DNA from: Trachythela sp. YZ-2020
Taxonomy: Eukaryota > Cnidaria > Anthozoa > Malacalcyonacea > Clavulariidae
Assembly (NCBI GenBank): GCA_016169945.1
Contig: JADLSH010000377.1
Location: 434,001 to 498,000, forward strand
Length of the DNA stretch: 64,000 nt
Direction of reading: 5' to 3'
This document shows positions 5,982 through 59,726 of this stretch, piece after piece. Made by a program: the position numbers and the translations under genes. The stretch's first letter is position 1, and every line of letters starts with the position of its first letter. The notes under the pieces are model-generated. The model ran no database searches. It had not been told where the DNA came from and was given only the letters and a program-made list of their open reading frames with translations.

Positions 5982-6119
5982 GGACAGTTCTTAACCTGAC
6001 CAAGGGGAATGAAACCCCTATATGGACAGTCCTTAACCTGACCCAGGGCACTAGACCCATATGGGCAGTCCTTAACCTGACCAAGGGCGATAAACCCCTA
6101 TGGACAGTCCTTAATCCCC
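5982..6119 (+). repeat. Short tandem repeat array, about 40-bp unit, four copies
   Basis: The phrase GGACAGTCCTTAACCTGACC and close variants start at about 5982, 6024, 6063 and 6102 (spacing 42, 39, 39). The second half of each unit (CAAGGG...AAACCCCTAT) is more variable and partly self-complementary. A minus-strand reading frame runs through it (MVRLRT repeats), which follows from a period close to a multiple of three. Confidence 0.8.
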
Positions 6120-6145
6120 GAGCCGGGCGATAGCCCGGGCGAGGG
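6117..6145 (+). repeat. Short GA-punctuated hairpin 4
   Basis: CCC, GA (6120-6121), GCCGGGC, loop GATA, GCCCGGGC, GA (6141-6142), GGG. It is followed by GGTTATTTATCACACC near 6160, reminiscent of the AT-rich motif after the hairpins at 2858 and 38254. No matching right end was found. Confidence 0.55.
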
Positions 6146-13130: not shown

Positions 13131-13298
13131 AAAGCACTCTTTGTTCGTGCATTATCGTGTTTACAAGCACTCGTTCACGAACAAGGAACTCGACGTTTAA
13201 TACTGCACTCGGCTGCATCTCGTGCAGTATTAAACACTCGTTCCTTGTTCGTGAACTCGTCCTTGTAAATCCCGATAATACACTCACAGAGTGCTTTA
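13131..13298 (-). repeat. GA-punctuated hairpin 3
   Basis: A roughly 80-bp-arm palindrome centred near 13215. On the minus strand every module is preceded by GA (TC on plus at 13171, 13190, 13209, 13220, 13238 and 13257). The 17-nt module 13240-13256 is the exact reverse complement of 13173-13189; the next module pair (13192-13208 and 13222-13237) is nearly perfect. The stem sequence is unrelated to hairpins 1 and 2. Confidence 0.88.
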
Positions 13299-37620: not shown

Positions 37621-38253
37621 CTAAGACCATAGATATAGGAGACATAGATTGCTGACTCGAGGTCACGGCACGCGCCAACATGAAGAATTCAAAATGGCGG
37701 CTGAACCGGTCAAAACATCAAGTGACCTAGTCAACGTACGTCGCTTTCAGCAACGTTCACGAAAAGATACTTCTTTTAATATGTTTATTGCCCTTGTGGA
37801 CGTATAAACACATCAATTTGACAAGGAAAATATTACAAATTACCTTCGATTCATGCTGATTTAAGTTCGGCGAAATCACATATTTAGGCCGCCAGCTCGT
37901 AATACACAAGTTTGTCGCCCTGAATCCACTTTATTTTGTTTATAAATAATCCAGGAATAACTCTTTAAACTTTCTCTTAGACATCGTTGCTCCAAAGGGC
38001 AAAAATATTGCAAAACGTCAATCCGTGAGCTCACTGAAACCAGCCAAATGTTTGTTTAAATTCCAAAGAAAAACCGTCCACAACACTTCTATATTGAATA
38101 CACTCCACGGTAATGTGAAATTAATGCTGTTATTATCTAGCCAAATGCTCCCATTAAGCTTCGTTCATCGAGTCACTTGAGGCGCCATCATACAAAATGG
38201 CTGCTCAACCGGTCAAATTTTGTTTGAATTTTGGCGCATTTGTCAATATTAAC

Positions 38254-38396
38254 TACTTACTAACTGAGCGTGAGGTCTGTACGGTAAAATATCAAGCTGA
38301 GGTCTTGCTGTATTGACCGAGCGATAGCGAGGTCAATACAGCAAGACCGAGGCTTGATATTTTACCGTACAGACCGAACAGTCGAAGTTAGTAAGT
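38254..38396 (+). repeat. GA-punctuated hairpin 2
   Basis: About 70-bp arms centred near 38324. Order on plus: GA (38272), 25-nt module 38274-38298, GA, 18-nt module 38301-38318 (GGTCTTGCTGTATTGACC), GA, GC-GATA-GC, GA, the exact reverse complement of the 18-nt module, GA, the 25-nt module mirrored with one mismatch (38351-38375), GA. An outer stem ACTTACTAACT / AGTTAGTAAGT follows. Confidence 0.92.
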
Positions 38397-38960
38397 TGTT
38401 TATTATATGGCATTTCAGACAACAAAAAACAATTCATTTTGCCAAAAATTGGTCACGCGAGGGCAAAGTACAAAGTCCGAAACTCAAAGTTTCAAATGTC
38501 AAAATAATTTCAATGATACGAATATGTCTTAGTTTTTTACAAATTTATCTAATCTTAGCTTAGTAAAACTACTCTACAGTACCATTTATAGAATAAAATA
38601 TAAAATTAATAGAAAATATAGTGATATTGAGCTATCGGATCAAGGACAAAAACAACTTTGCATGTTCTTGACTGTTTTAGTTAAAAAACATCGTAAAATT
38701 TACCTTAAATTCGACTTGAGCCAACAAAACTTGATTTTATCCCTTGTAGTTATCCCTTTTCCGTATTTTCCGTTTATTTTTCATTGTTTTAAATTATTTT
38801 TAAGGATTTTTTAATGCTTTTATTGGTTTGAAATGTGTTCAAGTCGTCGCAGGGCAATAAGAATACCGTATTGCCCGTGGGCAATACGGGAAAATCCTGC
38901 CTCGTCAGCGACCAATCAGATTGCGAGATTCACCAAAACAAGCACTTGCCATATAATAAA
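38254..38960 (+). mobile_element. Second hairpin-ended element
   Basis: The hairpin at the left is followed by TTTATTATATGGCA (38399-38412), which is exactly mirrored by TGCCATATAATAAA at 38947-38960. Near the right end lie a second hairpin (CCGTATTGCCC-GTGGGCAATACGG, about 38866-38889) and the box CCAATCAGATTGC at 38912, identical to that at 3911 in the element at 2851-3947. No coding sequence recognised. Confidence 0.65.
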
Positions 38961-49287: not shown

Positions 49288-49727
<440 letters not shown>

Positions 49728-52965: not shown

Positions 52966-54130
52966 TTATGCGCGACGATCAGGCATGCCACTAGAGTGTC
53001 GGGCATGCGAGTCAAAGAGAAAGAAATCATTCATTTGCTTTATTAAGGCCATCATATAGCCCTCTAATATTAAAATAGCATGACTGTCATTCAAGAAAAT
53101 ACTCAAAAGTGCTGTATGAATATCATAGTAAGGAAATTCAATTTCCCGATCAGTTATAACAAGCCCTTGAAGCTCCTTTCCATAAGTCATAAACCAAATT
53201 TGGTTTTCATTTTTGCCAATTTGTTCTTCTAACACAATGGGTAGATCAATGTTATTTTGTGCCTCAATGGGCTCCATATTTTGAGCTACCTCCACGGGTA
53301 GATTGTTTATATTTTGAGCTACCTCCACGGGTAGATTGTTTATATTTTGAGCTACCTCCACGGGTAGATTGTTTATATTTTGAGCTACCTCCACGGGTAG
53401 ATTGTTTATATTTTGAGCTACCTCCACGGGTAGATTGTTTATATTTTGTGCTACCTCCACGGGTAGATTGTTTATATTTTGAGCTACCTCCACGGGTAGA
53501 TTGTTTATATTTTGAGCTACCTCCACGGGTAGATTGTTTATATTTTGAGCTACCTCCACGGGTAGATTGTTTATATTTTGAGCTACCTCCACGGGTAGAT
53601 TGTTTATATTTTGTGCTACCTCCACGGGTAGATTGTTTATATTTTGAGCTACCTCCACGGGTAGATTGTTTATATTTTGTGCTACCTCCACGGGTAGATT
53701 TATATACCACTATTTGTCATCGTACTACATGTATTCGTACATGAATTATTAACAGTGACAATTGTTGGTAAGTTATCTATAGACAAAAATTCTACACCAG
53801 TGTCTAGCTAGGACTAATAGGCCATTATTCAGAGCTCTTAAGTACATCTTGTCTCCTTGTATTAAGACACTATTAAATGTTGTAAACGACCATGCGGACA
53901 ATGGGATATTTCGGGCTGTAACAAGCGCCGATAAACTCATAAAAGCACATTGTTTGCCTCTAGAATGAACGCTAAACAGTTCATCGCCTTGGTGGATATT
54001 AGCAGAAATAAATAAAGCCATACTAGCTAACCTGGTTTCTTCGGGAAGTGTTCGTAAAATTCGTATATTTTGCATCAAGTCAGATGCGATAGCTGGAATT
54101 GCCTATTCAATATTTTTATCACTCCCCCCG
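52966..54130 (-). pseudogene. C76-type cysteine protease-like gene, split by frameshift and minisatellite
   Basis: On minus from 54130: an AIPAIASDLMQNIRIL segment, then FSVHSRGKQCAFMSLSALVT, whose QCAFMSL block would hold the catalytic cysteine, and a FNSVLIQGDKMYLRALNNG block. Near 53810 a one-base change shifts the frame; the other frame continues TGVEFLSIDNLPTIV and soon stops. The minisatellite follows (53702-53278), then the second half: YGKELQGL, HTALLSIFLNDSHAILILEG and FFLFDSHARHSSGMPD, in which the DSHAR histidine would be catalytic. A Cys block followed by an FDSHARxxxGxP block is the pattern of papain-fold peptidase C76-like domains in multicopy transposon-encoded animal proteins. 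It ends early at 52966. Substrate unknown; the assignment rests on pattern memory, not a search. Confidence 0.55.
53278..53702 (-). repeat. In-frame 33-bp minisatellite, about 13 copies
   Basis: Each unit encodes VEVAQNINNLP on minus. Units are essentially identical. The only variant seen is T or A in the alanine codon (about 3 of 13 units), which is synonymous in the minus frame but changes E to V in the overlapping plus frame. Confidence 0.97.
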
Positions 54131-54349: not shown

Positions 54350-54357
54350 ATAATCTA

Positions 54358-54512
54358 GATAGGAGTTCATCCATTTCGCATAGACCTTTGTATAGTTTTA
54401 TAGTTTTATTAATATAAGCATCAATCTACAAATACGGAATGATGAACGAACATAACACAAACTTGGACCCAGGTCCCTATATGTCTATTACTCTTTAATT
54501 ACCTATATGCTC
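54358..54512 (-). repeat. 3' LTR of the Gypsy element
   Basis: Minus-strand start GAGCATATAGG, end GAACTCCTATC. Same length and sequence as 59572-59726. The usual TG...CA termini are not seen. Confidence 0.88.
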
Positions 54513-54583: not shown

Positions 54584-56822
54584 TTATTTAACTTGTTCCA
54601 GGAGACCTTTCTTGTTATAATCCATCAGTCGCCTTAGTGCCAGCGGTGGTTTCTTTGTAGCGGGTGTAGGTGGAATGGCATTGGGTGTGGCATGTAGGGC
54701 GGGTGGCGTATCTGGCGTGGATGGCAAATGAGTCTGTGGTGTGGATGGGGTTCTTCTTGTGGCAGAGAGTGGTGTCTTTGGTATAGGACTTGGTGGGATC
54801 AGTGGTGTGCTCAGTTCTGTTGTAACGGGTGATGGTGTGGATGGGGGGCTAGGTAAATTGTTTTTGGGTACGGTTAATTGTTTGCTAAGGAGGGGAAGGT
54901 CGTCATCAACGGTACGTCGAGGTGGAGGCGTTTGTGCAGGGGTGTACTTTCGCAGAAATTTTCGATTCCGAAGGGTGATTCTGCCTGATCCATCAACACG
55001 TACTCTATATTGGTCGTATTGGAGTACCTCGATGACAAGTCCTGTCTTATCCCATTTTGTAGCGTGTGGCCCTGTTTGATTCTGTATCCTTACATGGTTT
55101 CCGACAACTAGGGGTGGTAGCTTTCTGGTGTGTTCGGACCACCGTTCTGCGGCCTTGATATGGCGAGTTCGTAAGGCTTCTTCACGTGCAGCAAGGGTGT
55201 CGCTCCAGGTGGGATGGGGCTTATACAGACCGGGAAAGATGGGTATGAAATCTTTTATAGGTCTACCGAAGACGCATTGTGCGGGTGACAGTTTTGTATC
55301 TGGGTCAGGGGTGTTGCGGTATTGGAGGATGGCTATTTGTAATGCATCTGTGTTGAGGCTGCCGTTTGGACTTGTATTGTTTGTTATGAGACGTTTGACG
55401 GTTTTAACTGCGACCTCTGCCCTGCAGTTGGAGTGGGGGAATGCGACGGATGAGAGTCGGTGGTGTACTCCCCAATCTTTAAGGAATTGGCGTGTTGCGA
55501 GCGCTGTGAATTCGGGGCCACCGTCTGTTGCGCACTCGTCTGGAATGCCAAAGGTCGTGAACGTACGTCGTAGGCTGTTGATGAGTCCTTTGGAGCCTTC
55601 TTTTGCTCGTTCAATGATGGGCCAGTTTGAATACCGGTCTACTACAACCAGGTAGTTGAATCCCTTGTAGTGAAAGAAGTCGGCACAGATGCACTGAAAG
55701 GGGTAGGCTGGCTGTACTGGTGGAATGGGTGGTGCACTGGGTTGGGAGGGGGCCATTCGATTACAGTTGTTGCAGTTGGCACGCATAGCTGTGATGGCAG
55801 GGGTGATGCCCGGCCAGAAGATGGTTGCTTCAGCACGTGCCATCATTGAGGTGACACCTTGGTGTGCTGAGTGTAGTACTATCAGGACATGCTTTCGGAG
55901 GGTGGGTGGTATGACGACGCGATCTTTATAAAGGATGACACCGTCCACTGTGTATAGGTGGTCGCGGAATTGGTGGTATTCTTGGAGTGGCTGTGGTAGT
56001 TCGTGTCGGAACACTGGGAATCCGGATTCGATGATGGACACTAGTTTAGTCATTGTTTCATCGCTTGTAGTTGCGAGTTTAACCCTATCCCATGTAATTG
56101 CGATGGCACTTAGGGCTGAAGAGGCAGAAGAGGCCAGTTCGGTGTCAATGGTGGAGTAGGGTGGCATTGGTGATGTCTCTTTGCAGCGGATGCCGGAGAG
56201 GAATGAGTGCCCAAGTTTGCTTAGTGGAAATGGGATTTCCGAGTCGTATATCGCTGCAACGTCATCTGGGAGTGTTAGTATGTCTGGGTTGGGTGATCCG
56301 GTGGGATGACGGGAGACGGCATCGGCGGCTTTGTGTCGTACTCCTGGGACGTGTACCATCCGGAATTTATAGCGTAGTGTTTTTTCCTTGAGGTTGCGCA
56401 GTCTTGCGTTGGGTATATCTTCGAGTGATCGGTCCCCGAGTATTCTTAGTAGGGGTTTATGGTCCACTGCGATAATCAGGTCGCTGCAGCCTAGGACGAA
56501 GTGTCTGGTTTTATCCAGGGCGTCGGCTACTGCTAAGGCCTCACCTTCGACTGGTGCATAGCGTGATTCCGCTGCGTGAGTGAAGCGGCTTCCTACTAGT
56601 GTTATTCGCCAGCCGGTACGGCAGCAGAAGGGCTCTATTGATGGGCAATGGCAGTGTTTCTGAAGTAGCCAATATCCAATTCCGTTTTTGGACCAGTCCG
56701 TAGCTAGGCAGGTTGGCTTTGATTTGTCGAATATGCGGACTCCCTCATTAATTTCACTTATGATGACCGATTTGGACTCTTCAAAGATTTGGTTGAGCTC
56801 GCTGTCCCATTTAAATGGTTGT
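54584..56822 (-). pseudogene. Gypsy pol, second part: RNase H and integrase
   Basis: The minus frame is open from about 56822 to TAA at 54584. RNase [18 protein letters not shown] (first catalytic aspartate), [18 protein letters not shown] (glutamate), and [12 protein letters not shown] (aspartate). Integrase: the zinc-binding [22 protein letters not shown] with CNNCNR, the core [20 protein letters not shown] (D), [10 protein letters not shown] (D) and [17 protein letters not shown] (E at the expected distance), then a [18 protein letters not shown] domain and a long proline/threonine-rich tail. The domains look complete, but the part is separated from RT by a one-base shift near 56820, so it could not be made from this copy in the usual way. 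Confidence 0.88.
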
Positions 56823-58172
56823 CCTTGAGTAGTTGGCGGAATGGTTGCATGCGGTCGGTGGCTGCGAAGGCGTAGGAGACCTGATTTATCAGTCCAAACC
56901 AGGAGCGAACATCTGTGATATTGGTTGGGGTCGGGAAGTTGCGGATGGCTTCAATATATTTCTGACACGGTCGTACACTGTCTGGGGTGATCTCAAATCC
57001 AGCAAATTCTACCGAGTTTGCGCCAAATCTGAATTTTTCTGGGTTTAGAGTGATGCCATTACGGCCACAGATATCTAGCCAGTCGACGTCTTGGAAGAAG
57101 CTGGCAGTGAGGGCGTCGGCCCAAAGTAGAGTGTCGTCGACGCATTTGGTTTTGTTGGGGACGTCTGCTACGATCTCATCGAATCGGCGCGAGTACCCGT
57201 CGCCTGAAGCGATATAACCCTGGGGCGCCGTCTTGTATCTGTAGCGACCCCACGGTGTAATAAATGTGGTTAGGTGGCGGTCGTCTTCATGTAGGGGTAC
57301 GCTGTGATAGCCGTTCCAGCAGTCGAATACCGTTTTCTTCTTGTTGCTTGGGACGGATCGCGCTTGGTGGAAGGGGCTCTGGGTGTGATGAGTCTCCCTT
57401 GTTGCGTGCAGGTTGAGAGCTTGGAAATCTACGGTGCGTCGGGGCTTGCCATTCTTCTTTGCGCATATTACCATACGATGGCACCATGTTACGGGCTCTC
57501 CGACTGGGACTGGTTCAATGACGCCGGGTGAGACGTCTTGGTCGAGGCCAGCTTTCACTTGATCTTGCCAATGAAGGGGTACTGGGATTGGGGTATGGTG
57601 GGCAGTCGGTTCGGCATTGGGATCCACCATCAGTCGCATGGGGGGTCCTTCCATTAGCGGTAGAGTCTGGTGAGTGCATGTGTTAAACGTGCTGGATTTG
57701 TAGTGGTTGAGGAGCCATGTCTCAAGGCACTCTCTAGTGGCCTCGGTTGCAGGGAAAGGTATTGTGTTTGGCTTTGGTGGTGGATGCTGGCGTCGTGGGC
57801 AGTTGCATGTTGGAGTGGATGTACTTGGGGCAGTTCGTTCTGGTGTTTCAGCAACCGGGGTTGATGCTTCGTCCGTTCTCATGCGGGGGACTTCTCCAAC
57901 TGTGGGAAAGTTTTCAGTGATTATGCCCAAGGCAGTGCATGCCTCGTGGCTGAGGAACAATTTGTCAGAGTCGCTTGTCACGTATACAATCTGGCGACTT
58001 TCCAATGTTTGACCAGTTTTAGATTTGCCAGAGAATCTTAGAATCACTGCGCCAAGGATTGTTATGCCCTTATTGTTGGCAGCGTGCATTTGCATTGTCA
58101 CTGGGATGAGGTCATCTTTACATAAGCCAAGGCGTTTGACGACTTTCATGCTTGCTAGGCAGCTTTGGCATC
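56823..58172 (-). pseudogene. Gypsy pol, first part: protease remainder and reverse transcriptase
   Basis: Continues the Gag frame directly after an in-frame TGA at 58168-58170, with CQSCLASMKVVKRLGL (protease after the active site). RT motifs in order: KKNGKPRRTVDFQALN, KTVFDCWNGYHSVPLHEDD (first aspartate), TAPQGYIASGDGYSRRFDE, and KCVDDTLLWADAL, the catalytic box, CVDD instead of the usual YIDD/YVDD. The connection follows: [20 protein letters not shown] and SWFGLINQV. The frame is lost at about 56820 (LKDNHLNG). CVDD occurs in this cnidarian Gypsy group as I recall it, so it may be natural rather than a mutation. Confidence 0.87.
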
Positions 58173-59124
58173 AGGTGTCAGCCATAGCAGAGAGTTGGGC
58201 CTCTCTTGGGTGGACAGTTTTTAGTTTGAAACCAAGGGCTGCATGGTCGTCTGGTCGGCAAGTGGCTGTGAGGCTGAGTTGTGGCTGAGGCTTGGATGGT
58301 TGTCTGACCCAGCGGTCATTAAGTTCGTTGTAAACATGGTGGTCAAGTGCGATGGCCTGCTTCCGTCCGGTGCGATTAATTGTTGTGCAGAGTGTATCAA
58401 ATGTCGCATCTTCAGTGCCTTGGATGCCGCTTCTTCTGTTTTTAGGTTTGTCCTTGCTACGGCAGACGCTTTCAAAGTGGTTTGTCCGGCCGCATACATC
58501 ACATCTTTTACCGTAGGCGGGGCAGTCGTTCTTCCTGATCCTTGGTGGGGCGTTTTTGCCGTGGCCCTGCTTTCCACAATAAGAGCAAGATTCGTTCTTG
58601 TTATCGTGTTGTCGGTTCTTAGTTTCCTCCTGGCCGCGCAGGCGGGCACCAAAGCTGCGTATTGTCTCGTCTCGGTCCTGGCGCATTTTGTGTAATTGGA
58701 CTCTGGCGACCATTGTGTTCTCTTCTTTTACTGCGAGTTTCTTTATTGCTGCCATGACTTCGTCGATGGGCTTGTTGGTGAGGGTTCCGCCAGCGTTTCG
58801 TGTAAGGTCTTTGCGCAGTGGCTCTTCACAGCACCCTAATAATTGTATCACCTTGTCTTTACCCGTAACCTTGGTAGCTTCGACGTAATCTAGCCATCGA
58901 GTTTGGAAGTATGACCACTCCTCGCTTGAGCCTGCTGCAGATAGCGTTGGACGGCGAACTTTCTCGATTCTAGCCGTTGTGACAGGGTTTGGTGATATGG
59001 CTCCAGCTTGTGTGTTGGTGTGAGCGCCAGAAGAGTGGATTGAGAGCAGTACAGCTGCTAGTTGGTTTTCCACTTCATCAGTTTCATAAGTGCAGTCAGG
59101 GTATGGACATTTGTGTTTGGGCAT
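58171..59124 (-). pseudogene. Gypsy Gag with internal deletion, running into protease
   Basis: The ATG at 59124 starts MPKHKCPYPDCTYETDEVEN, an N-terminal CxxxxC motif, followed by a Gag core (SSEEWSYFQTRWLDYVEATK, LLGCCEEPLRKDLTRNAG, ENTMVARVQLHKMRQDRDE). After FGARLRGQ the text jumps to EETKNRQHDN and the zinc knuckles CSYCGKQGHGKNAPP and CDVCGRTNHFESVC; related elements normally have about 100 more residues in between, so an internal deletion is likely. The frame reaches the protease active site AMADT and stops at TGA exactly where the glycine of the D-T/S-G triad should be. Confidence 0.82.
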
Positions 59125-59571
59125 TCTGATGCTCTATTCCGCTCGTTTATTTGACTTTTGAGTGTTATTAGTTTGTTTAACTTTCTGGGCGATGGGAATT
59201 TGTTATCACATGTGTTCAACGCCTGTTGAGTGATGGGATTTTCTATGGTTATCGTCTAGCGCAAATATTTTCAAAATGGCGCGTAATCCTATACACGAGG
59301 CGGATATTGTAATTCGCCCTTTGTGAGGGTTTTGTCAGCGTTGTGGAGTTAGCCTGTAGCCGTTTCTTCGCTCCGATAGAGATTTACAACGTGTTTCTAT
59401 ATCAATTTGCTGTTCTTACCTCGTTTTATGGGGTGTCTTTCGTCGCTGTTTCGGCCGCAATGTGTGCGCTTCGATTTGGGACTTTGTCAGCTAAACCACG
59501 GTAGAGTTCACTTCGCTGTCGTTCCTTCGTTTCGGCGGGCTTTAAGACGTACAGTACGTTCGTTCATCATA
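59125..59571 (-). other. Gypsy 5' leader
   Basis: Region between the 5' LTR and Gag. A tRNA-complementary primer site starting with TGG is not visible right after the LTR; the sequence reads TATGATGAACGAACG on minus. Confidence 0.6.
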
Positions 59572-59726
59572 GATAGGAGTTCATCCATTTCGCATAGACC
59601 TTTGTATAGTTTTATAGTTTTATTAATATAAGCATCAATCTACAAATACGGAATGATGAACGAACATAACACAAACTTGGACCCAGGTCCCTATATGTCT
59701 ATTACTCTTTAATTACCTATATGCTC
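59572..59726 (-). repeat. 5' LTR of the Gypsy element
   Basis: Identical to 54358-54512. It contains a TTATATTAATAAAACTATAA string on the minus strand that could serve as a polyadenylation signal. Confidence 0.88.

Follow-up and report, generated by a model that had tools for sequence, protein, structure and literature searches.

Animal Cryptons (DUF3504; KIAA1958-like) carry a single recombinase gene encoding the residues R-HxxR-H-Y and are accompanied by many non-autonomous copies, as are the elements described here. Short direct repeats of 4 to 6 bp at the ends are a further trait of Cryptons. In its accessible text, a 2011 survey describes animal Cryptons as lacking terminal repeats and proposes a circular intermediate (PMC3212892), so that, on this account, the question of how their ends are marked stood open. 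We searched the literature for Cryptons with a hairpin, a palindrome, or attC and found no such ends in the titles and abstracts listed, subscription papers falling mostly outside the scope of the search. In an integrated integron cassette, the outer box of the attachment site attC is split between the two ends. According to the accessible parts of two reports, attC is a poorly conserved palindrome with unpaired bases that distinguish its strands, the bottom strand being used by the tyrosine recombinase IntI, and in one attC the tip is an unpaired GAA (PMC2727003, PMC3053210). Helitron2 and Helentron transposons are described, in the accessible portions of the published accounts, as ending in asymmetric inverted repeats whose 3' copy adjoins a 3' hairpin (PMC3627910, PMC4067079). 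For Helraiser, the available text states that exchange of the hairpin stem keeps approximately 90% of activity and that a change of the loop acts like a deletion (PMC4778049), which makes this hairpin a useful parallel for the reading of structure.

We analyzed a stretch of 64,000 nucleotides of Trachythela sp. YZ-2020 DNA, hereafter the window, together with related loci of the genome (578 Mb in 396 contigs). Hairpins punctuated by GA probably serve as terminal attachment sites for Crypton-type tyrosine-recombinase transposons and for the numerous short non-autonomous copies that these move. A preliminary description of the window had presented four hairpins as chains of self-complementary modules separated by GA. 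This structure was found at 2858-2958, 13131-13298, and 38254-38396, each with GA opposite GA and on one strand, while the case for the fourth, at 6117-6145, was weak. The hairpin at 38254-38396 (GA on the plus strand) is the terminal hairpin of a non-autonomous element and consists of a 25-bp and an 18-bp module, with GA/GA at 38272-73/38376-77, 38299-300/38349-50, and 38319-20/38329-30 and a C-GATA-G tip whose GATA loop lies at 38323-38326; at the middle GA border, one flanking closing pair is T.G. The hairpin at 2858-2958 (GA on the plus strand) is the terminal hairpin of a second family and has a shortened tip. Its 25-bp module, bounded by GA/GA, recurs in 20 further copies, and in several members of the family (L029 to L048 and the window copy) the tip is lost, altered, or unevenly cut; such losses would be expected from replication slippage in a hairpin. 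The hairpin at 13131-13298 (GA on the minus strand) ends members of a third family. CGAG occurs on the plus and minus strands 3 and 0 times at 2858, 0 and 6 times at 13131, and 3 and 0 times at 38254, and its confinement to one strand of each hairpin agrees with the original observation that GA is on the same strand in both arms (minus for 13131-13298). At 6117-6145 (plus strand) there is a short hairpin with a GATA loop and CGAG nearby, which is unconfirmed as a transposon end; its CGAG sites are not exactly opposed and none of its loops scored as GA/GA, so its listing as a GA-bordered hairpin was not confirmed. The position at transposon ends, the link to a tyrosine recombinase, the frequent GNA/GNNA tips, and the kinship of two of the four hairpins are traits beyond those described at first. 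The window gave no Rfam match at the gathering threshold, and ARAGORN found no tRNA genes in it.

Other features of the window were also recorded. Direct repeats of 160 bp that are 99% identical (54353-54512 and 59566-59726) flank minus-strand gag-pol frames (54584-59133), as a recent LTR retrotransposon. Reading frames stay open through a long TTCT microsatellite (49290-49727) and through a 33-bp minisatellite of 13 copies (53276-53706). The closest of the named matches to the kinase gene of the window was from Dendronephthya (66%).

The composition of the internal loops was determined by folding hairpins of the window and the genome with DNA parameters. In a set of 14 hairpins, 10 of which had been chosen for visible GA (the four of the preliminary description and six from the random-locus scan), 25 of the 31 two-by-two internal loops were GA/GA. 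All but one of these (24/25) had pyrimidine-GA-purine in both arms, the contexts being CGAG/CGAG (14 loops), TGAG/CGAA (6), CGAA/TGAG (3), TGAG/CGAG (1), and CGAT/AGAG (1). The remaining six loops were GA/AA (2), AA/GA, GC/AG, GC/AA, and TT/TT. Among the other four hairpins (L068, L070, L051, and L095), GA/GA made up 8 of 11 loops, with 0 of 2 in L051. Tips of the form C-GNA-G or C-GNNA-G were present in 8 of the 14 hairpins (C-GAA-G in 5, C-GATA-G in 2, and C-GTA-G in 1); one tip each was C-AAA-G and C-CGA-G, and four were larger or misfolded. The orientation of the GA borders, which is the same in both arms, would also be expected if CGAG/TGAG were sites for a sequence-specific protein and the fold were secondary. 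We consider this unlikely, since the flanks vary between C-G and T-A pairs, the spacing varies, the sites lie opposed to each other, and the tips are GAA, GTA, or GATA in 8/14.

The frequency of GA borders was compared with that of other dinucleotides in an ungapped scan of 264 kb, made up of the window plus 20 loci of 10 kb taken at random on 14 contigs, which yielded 102 palindromes. The 31 palindromes with short loops and long arms contained 37 two-by-two loops, of which 8 were GA/GA or TC/TC versus 0 that were AG/AG or CT/CT. Six TT/TT loops were contributed by a pair of A/T arrays within a single locus. The other palindromes of the scan had 27 two-by-two loops, 2 of them GA/GA or TC/TC. 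When the random loci were considered by themselves, a strict GA test was positive for 4 of their 25 short-loop palindromes, and with looser flanks, inspection by eye of the random 200 kb revealed seven GA hairpins (in L009, L010, L018, L021, and L023 and twice in L014), two of which belong to one family. GA borders are thus more frequent than expected by chance. In a further family of palindromes from the scan (L014, 8617-8722; L025, 2749-2854), CGAG and CTCG share one strand and GA/GA is absent; this is apparently a different kind of element.

The extent of the elements that carry these hairpins was examined by comparing copies. The 38254 hairpin belongs to a non-autonomous element of 708 bp (38252-38959, minus strand), in which the hairpin is 3' if the element is read on the minus strand. 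An asymmetric inverted repeat, TTATTATATGGCA, has its inner copy directly inside the hairpin (38400-38412, plus strand) and its outer copy at the far end of the element (38947-38959, minus strand). The genome contains 387 occurrences of a 22-nt word from the stem. Among the first eight copies, six (L002 to L004 and L006 to L008) share roughly 710 bp on the right side of the border, and L001 and L005 represent subfamilies that have only parts of this sequence in common; the left flanks differ, except for those of L006 and L008, which are parts of one duplication. The same border was repeated in 19 more copies, with L089, L090, and L091 changed near it. In the 2858 family, all 21 rows had the identical start GTTATTT(A/G)CC, and for the 13131 family nearly all rows among the 40 scored of 310 candidates (39 besides the window copy) began at query base 8 to 12. 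The stem-base pattern of another family had 620 matches versus 0 for the control. When 20 of its copies were inspected by eye, 11 had kept all inner modules, and modules were partly or wholly lost in L055 to L058, L060 to L062, L069, and L071.

A complete element with a coding capacity was found at L096+L095. It is approximately 1.8 kb long and contains one intact open reading frame of 415 amino acids, which encodes a tyrosine recombinase of the Crypton type (DUF3504 match, 8.8e-11) and is its only enzyme, as in Cryptons, and it has a terminal GA hairpin. Its 5' end is an inverted repeat (81% over 26 nt), and the host reverse-transcriptase frame into which it is inserted runs on across the empty site. 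The border was located with a query made of the L095 gene, its trailer, the hairpin (861-1010), and 140 bases beyond. Among 40 scored candidates of 441, nine other loci matched from the gene through the hairpin at 95 to 100% identity and ended at query base 1013 to 1021, 26 rows matched the hairpin end only, and four rows were partial copies. Beyond query base 1023, which lies shortly after the hairpin, no match was seen in any of the other 39 forward rows. These results demonstrate that the L096+L095 element has its 3' border at the GA hairpin. Among 11 recombinase proteins, R174, R292, and Y324 were invariant and H289 and H315 were present in at least 90%, and we take the R, HxxR, H, and Y of the DUF3504 recombinase to be its catalytic residues. 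Named relatives of the recombinase include several cnidarian ones, which, with the Dendronephthya match of the kinase gene, points to a probable octocoral host. A single-protein query found no relatives in prokaryote and viral contigs; with an alignment as the query, a MAG contig (L101) gave a single match of 32 residues and viral contigs gave none. A PDB sequence search with the recombinase gave no match at E values up to 1.

The geometry of these ends, with asymmetric inverted repeats whose 3' copy lies beside a 3' hairpin, fits the published ends of Helitron2 and Helentron elements and of the related HINEs, and the hairpins were initially read as Helentron ends on this basis; that reading was dropped after inspection of L051, L093, L095, and the nine other gene-plus-hairpin copies. 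The hairpin elements might still be Helentron or Helitron2 derivatives moved by RepHel, with the recombinase genes as passengers, and RepHel genes are indeed abundant in the genome (150 of 525 candidates scored), one of them lying approximately 1.3 kb past the L095 hairpin. That gene lies outside the element, however, because no row passes query base 1023, and the L095 element and its nine copies hold the recombinase between their ends. Five RepHel genes were inspected, four chosen for their long frames and one for its closeness to a hairpin. Near one of the five, at L095, the hairpin follows the tyrosine-recombinase gene. The palindromes listed at L049 (read on one side only) and at L050+L094 were without a GA hairpin, the L051 hairpin near RepHel seems to be part of a short nested element, and the L093 hairpin seems to be an insertion inside a decayed RepHel. 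At L093 the GA hairpin element occupies 302-490, right after the OTU protease motif of the decayed Helitron gene. In addition, in two families it is a recombinase gene that runs into the hairpin, not the RepHel gene of autonomous Helentron copies. HINE palindromes of mites are 5 to 10 bp in the accessible text (PMC4067079). The complete element described here encodes a recombinase and not RepHel. Transposition by RepHel is therefore doubtful, and we favor a recombinase as the enzyme that moves these elements.

The second of these families was found from its gene. Three recombinase loci were chosen by gene alone, from groups with many alike copies among 150 listed of 700 candidates, and two of the three (L098 and L099) had a GA hairpin downstream. 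At the third, L097+L100, no GA hairpin was present within approximately 960 bases after the stop codon. L097+L100 represents a family of 340-amino-acid DUF3504 recombinases with at least several copies among the matches listed, and the ends of this family may be of another type. The hairpin that ends the L098 recombinase element is closely related to that at 2858-2958 and belongs to the same family, with a GAA tip. Among 40 scored candidates of 920, eight other loci ran from the L098 gene into the hairpin and reached query base 687 to 691, which does not define the border because only 7 bases of query follow the hairpin, and six further rows of this family ended before or within the hairpin. 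Four of the eight loci (on C237, C82, C174, and C110) had a DUF3504 match just upstream, and C192:44328-44461 turned up in the 2858 search as well as at the end of a recombinase copy. Taken together, the copies of two recombinase families run from the gene into a GA hairpin. Unlike the animal Cryptons of the 2011 survey, for which no terminal repeats were described, the elements here end in a GA-punctuated hairpin of 100 to 200 nt, and each end bears one part of the outer inverted repeat.

The 38254 hairpin matched the L098 hairpin with 62% identity over 152 nt (E of 1.7e-5 in a search against three loci) and gave no comparable match to those of L095 and L099. The 38254 and L098 hairpins have a common layout of a 25-bp module, GA, a 17- to 18-bp module, GA, and a tip, and their GA borders coincide. 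The earlier statement that the four hairpins have no stem sequence in common was too strong, since the L098 hairpin can be aligned with the one at 38254 and also with the one at 2858. No recombinase copy of the 38254 or 13131 family was seen by eye when 100 of the 387 copies were compared with the 150 of 700 recombinase candidates listed, and it is the similarity of the hairpins that suggests that the 38254 family may be moved by a DUF3504 recombinase.

In DNA, sheared tandem GA mismatches between a pyrimidine and a purine are stable, as are GNA loops. It had been proposed that one strand should fold much better than the other, and the GA strand was predicted to be superior in 15 of 16 hairpins (13 of the 14 above, with L021 as the exception, plus L098 and L099), three of the 16 being second members or relatives of families already counted. 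The advantage may be partly due to the way that the folding parameters treat GA mismatches. Tandem GA and GNNA loops are stable in RNA too, and the structure could thus act as RNA. In all three elements compared, however, the GA strand was antisense to the recombinase gene, so that a sense transcript would bear UC/UC, and a role as RNA is extremely unlikely.

The claim that the arms stay complementary while their sequences diverge was borne out by compensated changes of paired bases, although two hairpins set in register yield such pairs as a matter of course and the closer comparisons are the better evidence. The numbers of fully compensated, unchanged, and broken pairs were 0, 67, and 6 for L068/L014; 2, 67, and 7 for L098/L046; 6, 56, and 0 for two subfamilies of the 38254 element; 7, 47, and 9 for L098/L099; and 12, 27, and 2 for L070/L010. 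They were 15, 29, and 15 for L098/38254 and 17, 22, and 14 for L099/38254, where the broken pairs may reflect misalignment because identity was only 55% and 41%, respectively. Arms could also stay complementary in the absence of selection, through a mutational process (template switching within the hairpin), and single copies in which one GA has become TC, so that the border is now paired (L091, L039, L040, and L059), suggest that one arm is sometimes copied onto its partner, erasing GA/GA. Template switching would thus be expected to remove the GA borders, yet among 28 copies of the 38254 family (which had been recovered through a word containing one of the sites) each of the six GA sites was retained in 25 to 28, and diverged hairpins have GA borders in common. 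This persistence argues for selection, and a purely mutational origin is very unlikely.

The hairpins resemble attC, as described in the accessible reports, in being drifting palindromes with strand-marking unpaired bases and, in some, a GAA tip. By analogy with integrons, the attachment site is most likely used as folded single-stranded DNA. The element would leave as a circle, and on the GA strand, when single stranded, the joined ends would fold into one long hairpin; in the 38254 element, joining of the ends would let the outer copy of TTATTATATGGCA lengthen the stem. Sheared GA/GA pairs and GNA loops would promote folding of the GA strand and mark it as the correct one. When the joined ends were folded, the predicted energies of the GA strand and the other strand were -73.1 and -65.1 kcal/mol for L095 and -76.3 and -73.5 kcal/mol for the 38254 element. 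The recombinase would then exchange strands at an A/T core in the outer stem, ATAATA in the element and ATANTA in the target. L095 has ATACTA at the hairpin side and ATAATA at its other end, an exact ATANTA is present in no more than 17 of the 28 copies from the 38254 family (the free base being T in 7, C in 7, and A in 3), and 11 of 13 readable copies of another family have A-N-TTA at the place of the core. The stem letters would be free to drift because it is structure and punctuation that would be read. Whether animal Cryptons in general integrate through such a folded single-stranded hairpin, a eukaryotic counterpart of attC whose strand is set by sheared GA/GA and GNA loops and whose stem is free, is a broader proposal for which we judge the case to be evenly balanced.

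Differences from integrons are also clear. In the accessible descriptions, attC marks its strand by single extrahelical bases, whereas the coral hairpins would do so by tandem GA and reside in an animal host. Membership in the integrons is unlikely because of this host and the DUF3504 gene. The GA-hairpin elements belong to the Cryptons by their gene, and we make no claim that they are integrons.

Should these hairpins prove to be the ends, tests on animal Cryptons would become feasible, and the integron type of reaction, in which a tyrosine recombinase acts on a folded strand, would gain a likely animal parallel. Some short elements that combine a 3' hairpin with asymmetric inverted repeats, the layout that defines Helentron relatives, may be members of the Cryptons. 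The marking of an end by a hairpin that is foldable on one strand would be new for an animal transposon.
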